The notes under the pieces: generated by a model
Seen by the model: only the letters and a program-made list of their open reading frames with translations
The model's database searches: none
Told to the model about the DNA's origin: nothing
Assembly: GCF_015100395.1 (NCBI RefSeq)
Contig: NZ_AP022847.1
Location: 746,501 to 810,500, forward strand
Reading direction: 5' to 3'
DNA length: 64,000 nucleotides
DNA from: Nitrosophilus alvini
GTDB lineage: Bacteria; Campylobacterota; Campylobacteria; Campylobacterales; Nitratiruptoraceae
Shown: positions 5,885 through 14,984 of the stretch, in pieces
Layout: each line of letters opens with the position of its first letter
How positions within the stretch are numbered: the first letter of the stretch is position 1
Position numbers and translations under genes: made by a program

Positions 5885-6430
5885 ATGGACACGTCCTTCA
5901 ATATGTTTATAGAAACTGAGGTTCCGAAAAACGAGATAATTATATCCAGGACAGATCTAAATGGCATTATAACCTATGCAAATGAAACATTTGCCAGAAT
6001 TTCCGGTTATTCGTCTGATGAACTGGTGGGTAAGCCGCATAATATTTTGAGACATCCGGATATGCCTTCTTCCGTTTTTTATGATATGTGGAAGACTTTA
6101 AAAGACGGTGGAATATGGAGAGGATATATTAAAAATATTAGAAAAGACAGGGGATACTACTGGGTCTATGCGGAAATTTCCGGAGTTTATAAAAATGGAC
6201 GGCTAATAGAATATAAATCTATGAGAAGTTATGTTGAGAGAGAAAAAAGAATTCAGATGCAAAAACTGTATGACCAGATGAGAAAAAATGAAAGGGACCC
6301 GGTAAGAGTTGTGTCATACTTACCTTATCCTGTCTATTATGATCTGTTGAAAAAATCGGAAGCGGCAGGCGTATCGCCTCAAAAATGGCTTGAAAAATTG
6401 ATAAAAGATGCAAAAAAACCCAACTTTTGA
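5885..6430 (+). CDS. Single PAS-domain protein, Aer-like
   Basis: A 181-residue soluble protein with a PAS_3-like domain at about residues 18-125. It resembles Aer-type redox sensors (ITYANETFARISGYSSDELVG, HNILRHPDMP, WRGYIKNIRKDRGYYWV). There is no HAMP, kinase or methyl-accepting domain. The last 60 residues are basic and helical. It follows napD by 25 bases, so it is probably co-transcribed with nap. A role as a redox sensor partnering a separate transducer is an inference. Confidence 0.75.
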   Translation: MDTSFNMFIETEVPKNEIIISRTDLNGIITYANETFARISGYSSDELVGKPHNILRHPDMPSSVFYDMWKTLKDGGIWRGYIKNIRKDRGYYWVYAEISGVYKNGRLIEYKSMRSYVEREKRIQMQKLYDQMRKNERDPVRVVSYLPYPVYYDLLKKSEAAGVSPQKWLEKLIKDAKKPNF

Positions 6431-7928: not shown

Positions 7929-8567
7929 TTACTCATATAACGACTTCAATCCCTCTTTGTTTATCACTTTGTAGCCGTTTTCGTTTTTTTCCAATAAGTT
8001 AAGCGTTTTGAACTTTTTGATTATTCTAGAGAGTGTCTCCGGAGCTATGTTTAGGTTTGCGGCTATTTCCCCTTTTTTCAGTTCGATAAACTCTTTTTCA
8101 TGCTCGCATATAAACTTAGCCACTCTGGCTGTAGAATTCATAACTATATTATTTGTAATTACATCCTCTAAGAATTTTACTTTTTTTGTTAAAGATTTAA
8201 TCAAGAAAAAAGAGATTTCCGGATTTTTCAGAAACTCTTTTTCAAATTTCTCATAATCAATCAATACAGCACTTCCGTCAGTGACAAATTCTGCCGATGC
8301 GGGAAAAGGTATTCGTTCAAGATTTGCTATCTCTGCTATGAGTGATTGGGGAAAAAACTGATGAAGTATTATTTTATTGCCTTTATGGTCCGTTTTATAT
8401 ACCTGTAAAATTCCGTCCGTAAGGAGTATGAGAGACTTTGGCTCGTCTCCTTCGTAAAAAAGAATATTCCCTTTTTTATATGTGACTTTTTGTGAAATAC
8501 TTTCCAGTTTTTTTATCTGATCGGCACTCAGGTTTTCAAACAGATAAAATTCTTTTAGTTTTTCCAT
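7929..8567 (-). CDS. Crp/Fnr-family regulator, DNR/NNR-like
   Basis: A 212-residue regulator with an N-terminal cyclic-nucleotide-binding-like beta-barrel (residues 10-110), a dimerisation helix (about 115-140) and a C-terminal winged helix. The recognition helix contains E177-T-L-S180-R181, the ExxSR pattern that reads TTGAT/C half-sites in FNR. Only one cysteine (C154) is present, so it cannot hold an FNR-type [4Fe-4S] cluster. A heme/NO-sensing DNR or NssR-like mode is a reasonable inference. Matching boxes occur upstream of five units in this window. A TATAAT on the minus strand (8604-8609) may be its -10. Confidence 0.85.
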   Translation of the reverse strand: MEKLKEFYLFENLSADQIKKLESISQKVTYKKGNILFYEGDEPKSLILLTDGILQVYKTDHKGNKIILHQFFPQSLIAEIANLERIPFPASAEFVTDGSAVLIDYEKFEKEFLKNPEISFFLIKSLTKKVKFLEDVITNNIVMNSTARVAKFICEHEKEFIELKKGEIAANLNIAPETLSRIIKKFKTLNLLEKNENGYKVINKEGLKSLYE

Positions 8568-8704: not shown

Positions 8705-8746
8705 TTGACTCTAATCAAAGACTTTTGTTTTTTTTCATAATAAAAT
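8705..8746 (+). promoter_or_regulatory. FNR/DNR-type box and promoter of the nor operon
   Basis: TTGAC-TCTA-ATCAA spans 8705-8718, with TAAAAT as -10 at 8741-8746. The 36-base offset equals that at the barrel, nosB and nirDL promoters. The first nor-operon start codon is at 8777. Confidence 0.75.
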
Positions 8747-8776: not shown

Positions 8777-9106
8777 ATGGAGTACTTTATGCAAGATATA
8801 CCTCCGGGTGATTTCTTGCCTATATTTGTCAGTTCCGCATTTGTCATTATTTTCGGTATGGCTTATGCCGGATTCTTCACTTTTGTGAAGATAAAGGTCT
8901 TACCAAAGTATTATATATATGTTGCATATCTAAGCTGGTTTATGCTTGCGGCATGTATGTATTACCTAGGTACATTGCTTAGAGTGGAGCCTTATACCGA
9001 AAAAGTGTTGATGGGTGCAATGGTCGGATATCTTATCTTCCCTCATGCAGTCTTTTTTATATTACAAAGACTGCACGAAGAGTTTGAACCCGATTCGAAA
9101 AATTAA
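8777..9106 (+). CDS. Small three-helix membrane protein of the nor operon
   Basis: A 109-residue protein with three predicted transmembrane segments (about residues 15-37, 44-66 and 75-96) and a charged C-terminus. I do not recognise the family. It is the first gene after the TTGAC box and lies 20 bases before norC, so it is probably co-regulated with nitric oxide reductase. A role in NorCB assembly or quinol/cytochrome hand-over is only a guess. The start ATG at 8777 is preceded by AAAGGAGGG. Confidence 0.75.
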   Translation: MEYFMQDIPPGDFLPIFVSSAFVIIFGMAYAGFFTFVKIKVLPKYYIYVAYLSWFMLAACMYYLGTLLRVEPYTEKVLMGAMVGYLIFPHAVFFILQRLHEEFEPDSKN

Positions 9107-9126: not shown

Positions 9127-9819
9127 GTGGAAAACAAACCGACATCAGTCTGGACCAGCAACCGTTTCTGGAGCAGGTCTGCAGGATGGGTTACAGGTGT
9201 GGCAGCGGTTCTGCTGATTCTGCTGACATTTGACACGATGGCGCAGATTACGATGGGTACTGCGGAGGATGTAGAGAATAAGGTCACAAAAAGAGTGCCT
9301 TCACCAATAGTGATCAATTACAAAATCACATATGAGATGGATCAAAGAAGAGGTCATGAGGTGCCTATAATTGGCGGTAACGATGGAAATGGAAAAAGCC
9401 TTTTCCAGGAAAAAGAGAAATTTTTCGGCAGAGACGACTGGACTGAAGAAGAAGCTATGGAGCTTGTAAATCTTGGAAAACTGACTGTTCAGGCGAAAAA
9501 CTGCATGGATTGTCATACATTGCTTGGAAACGGCGCATATTATGCTCCGGACTTGACAAAAGCGTGGTTGGATCCTGCATGGGGACCGGAAGGGCCTATG
9601 CAAGCTATGACAGGAGCGAGTTCAAAAGAAGAAGCGATGGCAACATTTTTGCAAAATCCTGACAAATATCCGACACACGAAAGAATGATGCCAAATCTTG
9701 GAATAACTGCTGAAGAGGCAAAAGGTGTTGTTGCGTTTTTGAAACATATGTCAACAATAGATACAAACGGTTTCCCAAGAAACTTCGGCAAGATAAAAGG
9801 AGCGGTTTATGTGGAGTAG
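9127..9819 (+). CDS. norC: Nitric oxide reductase cytochrome c subunit NorC
   Basis: Membrane-anchored mono-heme cytochrome c (230 aa) that feeds electrons to NorB. It has an N-terminal transmembrane anchor (about residues 20-40) and heme motif CMDCH at residue 126, followed by TLLGNGAYYAPDLTKAW, characteristic of NorC. A distal methionine is likely in ERMMPNLG. The start is GTG at 9127, preceded by a strong AAAGGAGGTCG site. The 3' end overlaps norB by 11 bases. Confidence 0.95.
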   Translation: MENKPTSVWTSNRFWSRSAGWVTGVAAVLLILLTFDTMAQITMGTAEDVENKVTKRVPSPIVINYKITYEMDQRRGHEVPIIGGNDGNGKSLFQEKEKFFGRDDWTEEEAMELVNLGKLTVQAKNCMDCHTLLGNGAYYAPDLTKAWLDPAWGPEGPMQAMTGASSKEEAMATFLQNPDKYPTHERMMPNLGITAEEAKGVVAFLKHMSTIDTNGFPRNFGKIKGAVYVE

Positions 9820-11248
9820 TAACGCAAGACTGTATGAGTCGCAAAAAATAGCAGTAAAATACTTTACAGTTGCTGTTGCGCTGTTTGGTGCACAGTTGCT
9901 TTTTGGATTGATTGCTGCAATACAGTATCTTTATCCAAGCTTTTTGTTCAATACGCTAGATTTTTCTATAGCTAGAATGGTGCATATAAATGCTTTGGTT
10001 GTTTGGTTGCTTTATGCGATGATAGGTTCTGTCTATTGGCTTATGCCTGAGGAGACGGGTATAGATGTTGTAGGTGCCAAACTTGCAAATCTGGCTTTTT
10101 ATGTATTGACTGCTGCGGTCGCTGTTGTAGTTGTAGTTTATATTTTTGTTCAGGTAGGACCTGGAAATGAGATGACTACATGGCTGATCACAGAAGGTAG
10201 AGAGTATATCGAAGCTCCTAGATGGGCAGACATAGGTATAGTCGTTGTTGTATTGATATTCCTTGGCAATGTTTATGCGACAGTCATAAAAGCTCAGAAA
10301 AGAACCGGAATTATGACCGTATTGATGGCTGACCTTCTTGCTCTTGCGGGTCTTTATCTATGCGGTATGTTCTATACATCAAATATAAGTGTTGATCAGT
10401 ATTGGTGGTGGTGGGTTATCCACCTTTGGGTTGAAGCTACCTGGGAAGTTTTCGTGGCTTGTGTCGGTGGTTACATGCTAATGAAAACACTTGGTGCTAA
10501 CAGACAAGTTGTTGAGATGTGGCTATGGATCGAAGTAGCTATGATGTTCGGATCAGGTATACTCGGACTCGGACACCACTACTTCTGGATCGGAACTCCT
10601 GAATACTGGTGGGAGATAGGTGCACTTTTCTCTGCTCTTGAGCCTGTTCCTTTGGTAGGTCTATTTGTTCACGTACTTTATGACTGGGGTAAAGAGAGAG
10701 GAAAAGGAAACAATATCAAAAATACGCCTGCTTTTGCATGGTTGACTGTTGAAACATTCGGTAACTTCCTTGGTGCCGGTGTATGGGGATTTATGCACAC
10801 ATTGCCTCAGATAAACCTTTATACACACGGAACTCAGTGGCCGGCTGCTCACGGACACCTTGCTTTCTTCGGTGCTTATGCAGCTATCCTTATCGGTATG
10901 TTCTATATGGCAGTTCAGGGAAAACATGGTATAAAAGAGATGAGAATGAGTACAGCTACAAAATGGTCAATCTCTTTGATAACCGGCGGTGTGCTTATCA
11001 TGACAGTCTCTTTGACACTTTCTGCATATGTTCAGACTATGGTTGAGAGAGGACAGTTTGGTGCTACCTGGGAAGGCTATTTTATATCCCAGGCTCAGGT
11101 ATGGTTTGTTCAGGGACTTGGCTGGAGACTTGCAGCTGGTTTAGCCGTATTTGTAGGTTTTGTTCTTTTGGTTTATGATTTGATCACAATAGCGAAAAAG
11201 CAAAAAGCTGTAGCTGCTGAAGCAGAAGCGGAAGCTGTTCCGGCATGA
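9809..11248 (+). CDS. norB: Nitric oxide reductase catalytic subunit NorB (cNOR)
   Basis: Polytopic heme-copper-oxidase superfamily protein (479 aa) reducing 2 NO to N2O at a heme b3/FeB centre. Signature histidines and glutamates appear in VIHLWVEATWEVFVA, GLGHHYFWIGTPEYWW and WPAAHGHLAFFGAY. No N-terminal quinol-oxidase extension is present, so this is the short cytochrome-dependent cNOR paired with NorC. The Ala/Glu-rich tail is lineage-specific. Confidence 0.96.
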   Translation: MWSSNARLYESQKIAVKYFTVAVALFGAQLLFGLIAAIQYLYPSFLFNTLDFSIARMVHINALVVWLLYAMIGSVYWLMPEETGIDVVGAKLANLAFYVLTAAVAVVVVVYIFVQVGPGNEMTTWLITEGREYIEAPRWADIGIVVVVLIFLGNVYATVIKAQKRTGIMTVLMADLLALAGLYLCGMFYTSNISVDQYWWWWVIHLWVEATWEVFVACVGGYMLMKTLGANRQVVEMWLWIEVAMMFGSGILGLGHHYFWIGTPEYWWEIGALFSALEPVPLVGLFVHVLYDWGKERGKGNNIKNTPAFAWLTVETFGNFLGAGVWGFMHTLPQINLYTHGTQWPAAHGHLAFFGAYAAILIGMFYMAVQGKHGIKEMRMSTATKWSISLITGGVLIMTVSLTLSAYVQTMVERGQFGATWEGYFISQAQVWFVQGLGWRLAAGLAVFVGFVLLVYDLITIAKKQKAVAAEAEAEAVPA

Positions 11249-11306
11249 TAAAAATAATTGATTAGTTTCATAAACCGTTTAAATAAACAAAAAGGAGGAA
11301 ATTGCT

Positions 11307-11459
11307 ATGATTGAACCTTGTACTGATGTTGTATGCAGTATATGGTCCATTTTGAACCAGGGTCCTATGACTCTGACCATATTCTTGCATACACTTATAG
11401 TCCTACCTATGGTATGGCTATATTTTGATGAAAAGAAAAAGTTGCAAAGAGGTGAATAG
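11307..11459 (+). CDS. 50-residue single-span membrane protein between norB and nirS
   Basis: This small gene is inferred from sequence. The ATG at 11307 is preceded by the strong site AAAGGAGGAA and the frame runs 50 codons to TAG at 11457. The product starts MIEPCTDVVCSIW, has one hydrophobic segment (about residues 21-39) and a Lys-rich tail (DEKKKLQRGE). The two N-terminal cysteines (C5, C10) may bind metal or form a disulfide. I do not recognise it. Its place between norB and nirS suggests a small assembly or accessory subunit. Confidence 0.65.
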   Translation: MIEPCTDVVCSIWSILNQGPMTLTIFLHTLIVLPMVWLYFDEKKKLQRGE

Positions 11460-11518
11460 CCTCTTTGCTGATATGTAGGGGCGCAGGGGAAAATTTAATC
11501 CCAAATCAAGGAGCCAAA

Positions 11519-13183
11519 ATGAAGCTAAAAGTAGGATTGAGTGCTGTATTAGCAGTAGGACTGTTGTCAGGAATGACTACAACTGCAAGTGCAAGTGTGA
11601 AACTCTCTAAAGAAGAGATGAAGAAGGCTACGCAGATCTATTTTGATAGATGTGCTGGCTGTCACGGTATGCTTAGAAAAGGTGCTCTTGGGCCAAATCT
11701 TCTTCCTGAAAAGACTAGATCTATGGGAACAGAAGTTCTTGCTACTATCATTTACGGCGGAACTCCGGGCGGTATGCCTGACTGGGGTGCATCTGGCGAA
11801 ATGTCAAAAGAAGAGACTGAACTAATGGCGAAATTTATCCAGCTAGACCCTGTAAGCCCTCCTGAAAAGAGTATGGCTGACATGAAAAAAAGCTGGAAAG
11901 TATTTGTTCCTGTAGATAAAAGACCTAAAAAGCCTGAGACTAAAAGAAACTGGCAAAACTATTTCGGCGTTGTTATGAGAGATGTGGGTAAGGTTGCAAT
12001 TATCGACGGCGATACAAAAGAGCTTGTAAACATTGTTGATTCAGGTTTTGCGACTCACATACTTAGAACAAGTAAATCCGGAAGATATATGTATGCTATA
12101 GGTAGGGACGGTAAAGCTACTGTTATCGACCTATGGATGAAAAAGCCTAGAAACGTTGCTGAGATAAGAGTCTGTAACGATGCTAGAAGTATCGATACTT
12201 CAAAAGCAAAAGGTTATGAAGACAAATATGCTGTTGTAGGATGCTACTGGCCGCCTTCAATCGTTACTCTGAAAGGTGATACTCTTGAGCCGATCAAAAT
12301 AGTCTCTACTGCAAGCTATTACTATGATACTGAAGAGTTTACAAGAGAAGCAAGGGTTGCTTCTATCGTTGCTGACCACCACAAGCCTGAGTGGGTTATA
12401 AACGTAAAAGAGACAGGACAGGTATGGCTTTATAACTATGCTGATCCAAATAACCCTAGAATTACAATGCTGGAATCTGAAAGATATCTTCATGACGGTG
12501 GATGGGATCTTTCAAAAAGATATTTCCTAGTGGCTGCAAATGCTAGAAACAAAGTTGTGGCAGTCGATACTAAAGAGGGTAAAGTCGAAGCCATCATTCC
12601 TACAAGTGGTGTTAAGCCACACCCTGGACGTGGTGCGAATGTTGACCATCCAAAATATGGTCCTCTATGGGCTACAGGACATATCGGATCTCATCATATA
12701 GATTTTATAGGAACTGATCCTGACAACCATCCTAAAAATGCATGGAAGATTGTCAAAACTATTGAGCTTCCAGGAGATGGCGGTGGTAACTTGTTTATCA
12801 AAACCCATCCAAATTGTAACTATCTAATAGCTGACAGACCTGTTAACCCTGATAGAAAACTGCAGACTCAGCTATATATTATAGATAAAAACAAACTCGA
12901 AGTTGTCAAAACTATAAAAATTCCTAGCAAATACACAAAGGCTAGAAAAGTTAAAGTTAACGGCAAAACTATCGAGATCAAGCCAAGAGGTCCTGTTCAT
13001 ATCGAATTTAATAAAGACGGAAGTGAATTCTGGGTCAGCGTATGGGGACATAAACTAGTTCCATCTGCTATATTGGTATATGATTCCAAAACACTTAAGC
13101 TTAAAAAAGCTATCGAAGGTGACTGGGTCAGAACACCAACCGGTAAATTCAACGTTTACAACACTATGAAAGATATCTATTGA
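11519..13183 (+). CDS. nirS: Cytochrome cd1 nitrite reductase NirS
   Basis: Periplasmic NO-forming nitrite reductase (554 aa). A signal peptide is followed by a cytochrome c domain (CAGCH at about residue 45) and then an eight-bladed heme d1 propeller. Typical propeller stretches are GRYMYAIGRDGKATVIDLW, VGCYWPPS, HHKPEWVINVKETGQ and VKPHPGRGAN. The start at 11519 was chosen because AAGGAG lies 6 bases upstream and a proper signal sequence begins there; the frame is open back to 11465. Confidence 0.96.
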   Translation: MKLKVGLSAVLAVGLLSGMTTTASASVKLSKEEMKKATQIYFDRCAGCHGMLRKGALGPNLLPEKTRSMGTEVLATIIYGGTPGGMPDWGASGEMSKEETELMAKFIQLDPVSPPEKSMADMKKSWKVFVPVDKRPKKPETKRNWQNYFGVVMRDVGKVAIIDGDTKELVNIVDSGFATHILRTSKSGRYMYAIGRDGKATVIDLWMKKPRNVAEIRVCNDARSIDTSKAKGYEDKYAVVGCYWPPSIVTLKGDTLEPIKIVSTASYYYDTEEFTREARVASIVADHHKPEWVINVKETGQVWLYNYADPNNPRITMLESERYLHDGGWDLSKRYFLVAANARNKVVAVDTKEGKVEAIIPTSGVKPHPGRGANVDHPKYGPLWATGHIGSHHIDFIGTDPDNHPKNAWKIVKTIELPGDGGGNLFIKTHPNCNYLIADRPVNPDRKLQTQLYIIDKNKLEVVKTIKIPSKYTKARKVKVNGKTIEIKPRGPVHIEFNKDGSEFWVSVWGHKLVPSAILVYDSKTLKLKKAIEGDWVRTPTGKFNVYNTMKDIY

Positions 13184-13292: not shown

Positions 13293-14984
13293 ATGAAAAA
13301 AAACATCATATTTTCACTGCTTTTTTTCACATCTCTCTTCGCTGAATCCAAGTTTGACAGTTTTTATGTTCATCAATTGGAAAGCGGAGAGAAAAACGGC
13401 AAAATACTTTATGACAGATACTGTGCCGGATGCCATCACAAAGAGAGGATCGGAGTAAGCGGACCCCCGTTGTTACCAGCTTTTATAAGAAAGATTTCAG
13501 ATAAAAAACTGCACGATATCATTAAAAATTCTCTTCCGCAGACTCTTATGCCGAAATTTGATTTTTTAAGTTCAGAAGATATCGACCTGATAGTAAAATA
13601 TCTCAGACAACCCGCTGGTGATATCAAATGGGATATCACAAATATAGAAAAATCGATAGTAAAGTTTGATAAAAAGGCGGCAGATCTTGGGATAGAAAAT
13701 ATCGAAAATGTTACTCCTGTGGTAGAGAGAGGTGCAAACAGAATATGGATAATGGAAAATGAGAAACTGCTCGATTTTTTCAATTTTAAAAATGTCCATG
13801 GTGGACTGAAATATACTATGGATGGAAAAAATCTCTATATTCCCACAAGAGATGGATGGGTAGGCAGATATCAGCTTGACAAAGGAAGACTTCATTCAAA
13901 AGTAAGAGCGTGCGTAAACCTTAGAAATATTTCGCTTTCCCGTGACGGAAAAACGATATTTGCCACATGTCTTTTGCCACAGTCAGTAGTAATGCTGGAT
14001 TCTCAGACATTGAAACCTTTGAAGATGGTGAATGTTGATGGCAAAATAAGTGCTCTATATGAACTTTATTCAAAAGATATAGCAATCTTCTCCTTCCGTG
14101 ACAAACCTCTTTTCGCTACGGTTGATACAAAGACTTTTGATATAACTTATCAAAAGCTTGATGCTCCAATTGAGGATTTTTTTATTGATCCATTTGAAGA
14201 GTATATCATCGGAACGACCAGAAGGGGCAGCCGTCTTGGAGTTTATGAGATTGACTCAAAAAAGAAAGTTTTTGAAGAGAAAATTGAGGGAATGCCCCAT
14301 CTTTTTTCTGCAACCTACTGGTACAGAGACGGGAAATTCTATTTCGCTACTCCGCATCTGAGAAAACCTTATGTAACAATTTGGCAGATGTATGACTGGA
14401 AACTTGTAAAAAAGATAAATATAGACGGAGACGGTTTTTTTGTAAAGACACATCCGGCCAGCAAATATCTCTGGGCAGATAACGGTACTGACAAAATTGT
14501 TCTTATTGATAAAGAAAATTATAAAATCAAAACTTTTACTCCTATGAAAGGGAAGAGATTTATACATACGGAATTTAATGCGGCGGGAAATATAGCTTAT
14601 CTGAGTATTTATGAAAGTGATGGTGCACTGCAGGTGATTCAGACAGATACAATGAAAGAGTTGGTAAGATACGAAGCGAATGTTCCTGTTGGAAAATATA
14701 ACTTTGTCAATAAAAATAGAGTTTTTTATCCGCGACTCTTTGGTCAGTCTATCTTCAAAGAGAAATGTTGGGGATGCCACCATCAAACTTCTGAAGCTTT
14801 CGGGCCTTCGTTTAGCCAGATAGCAAAAACTAGAACCGAAGGTGAGATGATCTCCCAGATAGTTGACCCTGTGCATACTTATAAACAACTTGGATACAAA
14901 AGAAATCTTATGCCTGCATTCAAGTTGAATGAAAAAGAGTTGAAAAGTATAGTAGAATATATAAAAAGCTGCAGGGAAAAATAA
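13293..14984 (+). CDS. nirN: NirN-like heme d1 protein with N- and C-terminal cytochrome c domains
   Basis: A 563-residue periplasmic protein with a signal peptide, a cytochrome c domain (CAGCHH at 44-49), a d1-type propeller related to NirS/NirN/NirF, and a second cytochrome c motif at the C-terminus (CWGCHH, about 492-497). NirN oxidises dihydro-heme d1 in the last biosynthetic step. The C-terminal heme domain is extra relative to classical NirN and may replace a NirC-type cytochrome. That fusion reading is an inference. It shares one base with nirJ. Confidence 0.8.
   Translation: MKKNIIFSLLFFTSLFAESKFDSFYVHQLESGEKNGKILYDRYCAGCHHKERIGVSGPPLLPAFIRKISDKKLHDIIKNSLPQTLMPKFDFLSSEDIDLIVKYLRQPAGDIKWDITNIEKSIVKFDKKAADLGIENIENVTPVVERGANRIWIMENEKLLDFFNFKNVHGGLKYTMDGKNLYIPTRDGWVGRYQLDKGRLHSKVRACVNLRNISLSRDGKTIFATCLLPQSVVMLDSQTLKPLKMVNVDGKISALYELYSKDIAIFSFRDKPLFATVDTKTFDITYQKLDAPIEDFFIDPFEEYIIGTTRRGSRLGVYEIDSKKKVFEEKIEGMPHLFSATYWYRDGKFYFATPHLRKPYVTIWQMYDWKLVKKINIDGDGFFVKTHPASKYLWADNGTDKIVLIDKENYKIKTFTPMKGKRFIHTEFNAAGNIAYLSIYESDGALQVIQTDTMKELVRYEANVPVGKYNFVNKNRVFYPRLFGQSIFKEKCWGCHHQTSEAFGPSFSQIAKTRTEGEMISQIVDPVHTYKQLGYKRNLMPAFKLNEKELKSIVEYIKSCREK

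Follow-up and report, generated by a model that had tools for sequence, protein, structure and literature searches.

What kind of gene, if any, lies in the short gap between norB and nirS of Nitrosophilus alvini, and which of its two neighbours does it belong to? The greenhouse gas N2O is the product of NO reductase, and among the denitrifiers of vents and redoxclines Campylobacterota are an important group. In the window, by which we mean the whole 64,000-nucleotide stretch of DNA analysed here, a sequence-only reading had picked out an overlooked gene at 11307–11459 on the + strand. That reading credited the locus with a strong ribosome-binding site and a product with one membrane span, two N-terminal cysteines and a basic tail, and remarked that such small subunits often stabilise or regulate respiratory complexes. 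Among the literature matches listed, often a part of the full set, no title was about a small gene behind norB.

The frame runs from the ATG at 11307 to the TAG at 11459 and is translated as MIEPCTDVVCSIWSILNQGPMTLTIFLHTLIVLPMVWLYFDEKKKLQRGE, a predicted single-span membrane protein of 50 aa. A Shine–Dalgarno sequence, AAGGAGG (11292–11298, + strand), is placed 8 nt 5′ of the ATG, and the gene is separated from the end of norB by 58 bp and from the nirS ATG by 59 bp. A similarity search of 100 related genomes returned matches with E < 1e-12 in 46 of them, none with an internal stop, and all remaining matches in the same search had E > 0.02. Differences between the window gene and 91 other distinct genes numbered 1298, 583, and 2740 at codon positions 1, 2, and 3, and in the 20 nearest loci (L002–L021) there were 0–5 changes at position 2 and 23–33 at position 3. 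As dS was computable for 2 of the 91 pairs and not computable for the other 89, dN/dS provides no basis for the gene call. GGAG occurs 5–16 nt 5′ of the ATG in 86 of 92 distinct small genes, versus 101 of 2579 control ATGs. An antisense 40-aa ORF across the small gene is open in 13 of the 92 distinct genes and closed in 79. A known RNA element was rejected as the source of the conservation, since Rfam gave nothing convincing (best E 0.76). We conclude that ORF 11307–11459 is a real, strongly conserved gene, and the sequence-only reading was right on this point and on the strength of the ribosome-binding site. The idea of a chance or non-functional ORF, which has in its favour solely that no curated family covers the small protein, retains practically no probability; it is already refuted by the absence of stops in all 46 strong matches, by the codon-position bias together with twelve invariant positions, and by the conserved ribosome-binding site.

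The small protein is the product of a widespread family without a Pfam or NCBIfam model. The window protein matched no model of either collection at E ≤ 1, and the 38 relatives searched gave no convincing family; their Pfam matches with best E of 0.006–0.045 (LtrA in 7 of 38, an apicomplexan microprotein in 10 of 38) were dismissed as chance. Among solved structures there was no convincing relative (best E 0.39). A search profile built from 38 of 86 distinct small proteins matched 72 of 397 genomes in a sample of the phylum, and 203 stretches encoding the small protein turned up in a scan of 84,980 species genomes; the best 80 of these are referred to below as named loci. Stops flagged in four phylum matches (L111, L112, L113, and L114) lie at the C-terminal end of the frame, and two weak matches (G490 and G709, E 0.001–0.006) were set aside, as there was no norB match within the 3 kb examined. 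Spread by viruses or plasmids was likewise rejected: 30 pattern matches in viral contigs yielded no confirmed relative, and no relative was found among the plasmids searched.

The small gene follows norB in vent and marine Campylobacterota. norB (9809–11248, + strand, 479 aa) is its constant neighbour. An orthologous NorB was found in 47 of the 100 related genomes, and the small gene sits beside norB in 46 of these 47, with a same-contig distance between the two matches of at most 107 bp in 46 of 46. In the exception (G014), NorB is present and the small gene is missing, and the contig breaks off within norB. The small gene is absent from all 53 related genomes that lack an orthologous NorB. 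norB is directly upstream in all 80 named loci (best 80 of 203), and the gap between the two genes is 9–115 bp over 110 loci, some of which are the same genome twice. In the same best 80 of 203, norC was found in 71 and the 109-aa gene that opens the cluster, X109, in 67; in the rest, norB or norC is at the locus edge. Neither loss of the gene nor a broken frame, the two outcomes that the sequence-only reading had named as counting against it, was found in the 80 named loci (best 80 of 203) or the 46 uncut genomes.

The other neighbour, nirS (cytochrome cd1; 11519–13183, + strand, family search), is inconstant. Two loci have no cd1 match downstream (L055 and L071, within 2.8 and 6 kb, respectively), a third (L095) has a different cd1 paralogue in place of nirS, and in many of the named loci (best 80 of 203) the downstream cd1-type gene is just 25–33% identical to the window NirS. 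Hence, of the setting between norB and nirS that was first described, the norB side is constant and the nirS side is not, and nirS is ruled out as the partner of the small gene because the link to norB persists where nirS varies. In the window, nirS is followed by a second cytochrome cd1 paralogue (13293–14984) with haem-c domains at both ends and then by a radical SAM gene, an order that recurs in the window's own family.

The operon has the order X109, norC, norB, and, as its last member, the small ORF. X109 (8777–9106, + strand) encodes a 109-aa membrane protein, and norC (9127–9819, + strand, family search) has a GTG start and one haem-c motif, CMDCH. A pattern search upstream of X109 found an FNR/DNR-type box, TTGACTCTAATCAA (8705–8718, + strand), a perfect instance of TTGAY-N4-RTCAA. 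Such a perfect box precedes X109 in 62 of the 64 loci with enough upstream sequence, and an equal control stretch inside X109 contains none in these 64 loci. No perfect FNR-type box was found in any of 80 norB–small gene gaps. From these two distributions, a single FNR/DNR-type promoter most likely serves all four genes, X109, norC, norB, and the small gene. In the window alone, boxes with at most one mismatch are no more frequent than chance (14 found, 16 expected). A divergent gene at 7929–8567 (− strand) encodes a Crp/Fnr-family regulator by Pfam (cNMP_binding, HTH_Crp_2), and we infer that this candidate reader binds the box at 8705–8718. Further perfect boxes, at 6427, 20959, 28233, and 30389, each stand a short way upstream of an ORF and may mark a regulon. 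At the other end of the operon, before nirS, folding predicts a hairpin (11444–11468, + strand) whose 9-bp stem closes a loop that contains the small gene's stop codon. Among 92 segments taken from around this codon, 41 fold with z < −2, possibly reflecting mRNA processing between nor and nirS.

Alignment of the relatives places a conserved core, NQGPxTLTIxLHTxIxLPMxxxYxxEK, at codons 17–43 (11355–11435, + strand). It includes the predicted transmembrane codons 22–40, which are the most hydrophobic 19-residue stretch of the window protein; the single span first claimed is thus borne out as a predicted stretch. Twelve positions never vary across the 86 distinct proteins (D7, G19, P20, L23, T24, L27, H28, P34, M35, Y39, E42, and K43), and another four (L16, N17, T22, and L33) each vary in one sequence. 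On the N-terminal side of the helix the distinct proteins have at most one Lys or Arg and a net charge of −3 to −1. The C-terminal side has at least three Lys or Arg, which agrees with the basic tail noted at the outset in so far as the tail is Lys/Arg-rich, but it also carries acids, and its net charge is −3 to +4 (mean 0.5). By the positive-inside rule, taken here on Lys and Arg alone, the N-terminus would be periplasmic and the Lys/Arg-rich tail cytoplasmic. The helical conservation moment was not significant (p 0.14). AlphaFold2 was given a naturally occurring read-through in which norB continues in frame into the small gene; it assigned the small helix a pLDDT of about 50, and we therefore claim no docking onto NorB.

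The two N-terminal cysteines are present in the window protein as a C-x4-C pair (Cys5 and Cys10, codons 5–10; 11319–11336, + strand) on the predicted periplasmic side. The pair is not a hallmark of the family, a role that we ruled out because both cysteines occur in 28 of 86 distinct proteins; 58 have neither, and none has a single one. In a quick tree the pair is scattered over separate NorB clades, as expected of an optional disulphide. This all-or-none pattern on the predicted periplasmic side could speak for a regulator or adaptor, such as a redox or NO sensor in a periplasmic loop with the optional disulphide, or a protein that tethers NorCB to NirS. We regard such a role as improbable: 58 of 86 distinct proteins are free of cysteine, nirS is an inconstant neighbour, and a gene so strictly linked to norB is better understood as encoding a stoichiometric partner.

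The small gene accompanies one type of norB. In one genome (L115), a canonical cluster (norC–norB with NorQ and a 599-aa gene) and an X109–norC–norB–small gene–nirS cluster are adjacent and divergent, and the small gene is in the latter only, which offers a ready-made comparison of the two NOR types. Likewise, the small gene is absent behind the canonical norB of L116. The second NorB found in two genomes is 39–42% identical to the window NorB, has NorQ close by, and is not followed by the small gene; the 599-aa gene after the second norB is taken as norD by its place and length. On three Alphaproteobacterial plasmids, norQ lies at most 67 bp after norB and there is no small gene behind that norB. 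The complete cassette X109–norC–norB–small gene–nirS, of the Campylobacterota type, was also found in three vent MAGs titled Gammaproteobacteria (L046, L048, and L049). A sample of 274 Gammaproteobacteria genomes gave three strong matches to the small protein, two of which are MAGs already among these three. The NorB proteins of the Gammaproteobacteria-titled MAGs form one clade beside the window family (support 94, quick tree), which suggests that the nor cassette probably moved between lineages as a unit; misbinning is an alternative.

The absence of NorQ, the iron-inserting chaperone, raises a further possibility for the small protein. A search with PF08406 found NorQ in 3 of the 100 relatives, all among the 46 small-gene genomes; the other 43 are without it, as is the window genome. 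In two of the three, NorQ is beside a second, canonical NorB that lacks the small gene; the third is G028. VWA proteins were uninformative as a test for NorD, being present in 78 of 100 genomes. According to passages of PMC9976466, D220 and E222 of Paracoccus NorB are needed for FeB insertion and form a proposed docking site for NorD. In the NorB of P. aminovorans, D220-R-E222 falls within the motif GVDRE, where the window NorB reads GANRQ. The assignment of D220 rests on the matching numbers in P. aminovorans and on the motif being present in PDB 3o0r and 4xyd but missing from the aligned qNOR 3ayf, with the caveat that the histidine numbers given in those passages (H253/H254) do not fit the spacing of the P. 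aminovorans record (H245). An aspartate at this position was found in 0 of 118 rows (96 distinct) of NorB from the small-gene clade, defined as at least 60% identity, which have K, N, H, S, or R instead. Canonical NorB has D-R-E in 6 of 6 readable rows, five beside norQ and one from Thiothrix without norQ annotated nearby; a seventh, distant and qNOR-like, is unreadable at this position. The loss of D220 in 118 of 118 rows fits a small-clade NorB that is a cNOR not using NorQD.

These observations would also suit a built-in FeB-insertion factor, a small protein that together with X109 replaces the NorQ and NorD chaperones, its helix (with invariant Thr24, His28, Tyr39, and Glu42) keeping the FeB path open or handing over iron. 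The rarity of NorQ, its position beside canonical NorB in two of three cases, and the D220 contrast with the canonical enzymes and both structures speak for it. Thermus NorB, however, also lacks the motif (it reads P-R-R), has no norQ annotated beside it and has NorH, with no match to the small protein, so that chaperone freedom seems not to need the small protein. Furthermore, half of the distinct small-clade NorB (48 of 96) retain E222, and another MoxR-type ATPase could serve instead. In view of the Thermus enzyme we keep direct chaperone replacement as a rival only, and consider it unlikely. For FeB loading of cNOR without NorQ or NorD, two conserved candidates can now be named, X109 and the 50-aa protein, along with a lost docking residue. 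Appelgren and Adelroth are said to have treated cNORs lacking chaperones in 2025, which may overlap with the chaperone-free idea.

X109 itself appears related to Thermus NorH. It was found in 44 of the 47 NorB genomes; the contigs of the other three (G016, G021, and G072) end before its expected place, and in G018 it is on another contig. X109 matched nothing in Pfam at E ≤ 1, and its relatives had weak matches only. Profile comparison of X109 with Thermus NorH, represented by one sequence, gave an hhalign probability of 73.7, E of 2.9e-5, and 75 aligned columns, and BLASTP of the two sequences alone gave an E of 0.014. Among plasmid-encoded proteins, Thermus NorB comes closest to the window NorB (56%), and the Thermus operon is norC–norB–norH followed by nirS. 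The profile alignment, this relationship, and the operon together lend moderate support to X109 being probably a divergent NorH. Solved structures included no convincing relative of NorH.

Taken together, we think it likely that the small protein belongs specifically to the NorCB of a chaperone-free clade, either as a small subunit or as an assembly factor. The genetic linkage expected of a cNOR small subunit was found in 46 of 46 genomes and in 80 of 80 loci (best 80 of 203). Its gene would be transcribed with those of the NorH-like X109, NorC, and NorB from a single FNR-type promoter, and the protein would insert as a single helix, the N-terminus on the periplasmic side and the Lys/Arg-rich tail on the cytoplasmic side. 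This helix may pack on NorB, or on NorB and NorC, via its invariant residues, and could hold the NorCB complex together or aid its assembly, as CcoQ or CcoM in the cbb3 oxidase; we infer both the contact with NorB and the stabilising role. The part first suggested for it, in stabilising or regulating a respiratory complex, is the most probable one. The related NorCB of the Thermus plasmids, encoded as norCBH, occurs without any match to the window small protein, a point against the subunit reading. A bolder extension, which we find doubtful, is a four-part chaperone-free NOR of X109, NorC, NorB, and the 50-aa protein, in which the helix is the counterpart of CcoQ from the common ancestor of cbb3 oxidase and NOR and, with X109, makes NorQ and NorD unnecessary for loading the non-haem iron.

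Among known small proteins of nor operons, Thermus NorH resembles the window protein in being a small membrane protein encoded in a nor operon next to nirS, with no norQ annotated beside it. It differs in its length of 98 aa and in aligning with the neighbour X109 instead; the 50-aa protein has no sequence match to it. In L115 and L116, the genes that by place and length resemble NorE and NorF of norCBQDEF sit in the canonical clusters, which lack the small gene, and the small protein is set apart from them by place only.

The closest parallels lie in the cbb3 oxidase, whose CcoN and CcoO are relatives of NorB and NorC. The small protein shares with CcoQ its small size, one span, a short N-terminus, EKK after the helix, and an operon for a haem-copper enzyme, but CcoQ has a YEKY..LALDD tail whereas the small protein has an N-terminal NQGP segment. 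The epsilon CcoQ model TIGR02736 matched 1 of 38 relatives at E 0.06 and did not match the window protein at E ≤ 1, and the small protein does not reach its curated cut-off of 61.55 bits. The small gene also lies behind norB instead of in a cco operon, and its own genome has a separate CcoQ at C1:1648666–1648815. Solved structures gave no convincing relative of a CcoQ profile built from 12 sequences of related genomes (best E 0.055). Comparison of the small-protein profile with this CcoQ profile by hhalign gave an E of 4e-4 and a probability of 34–37 over 26–27 columns that cover the helix and the EKK tail. None of 100 zone-preserving column shuffles (best 17.1) came up to the score of 22.4, nor did any of 48 control windows taken from NorB and X109 (best 19.8, from NorB). 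Given the small margin over the best control window, the likeness is suggestive, not proof, of shared ancestry or shared constraints. Passages of PMC8267372 describe CcoQ as stabilising CcoP on CcoNO in some species, and CcoM of the Pseudomonas cbb3 oxidase, which we liken to the small protein by description, as a single-span subunit needed for stability and not for activity. The same passages report that the membrane proteins CcoX and CcoH, encoded beside the cco genes of Campylobacter, are essential for oxidase activity, which makes a similar role for the small protein in NorCB reasonable.
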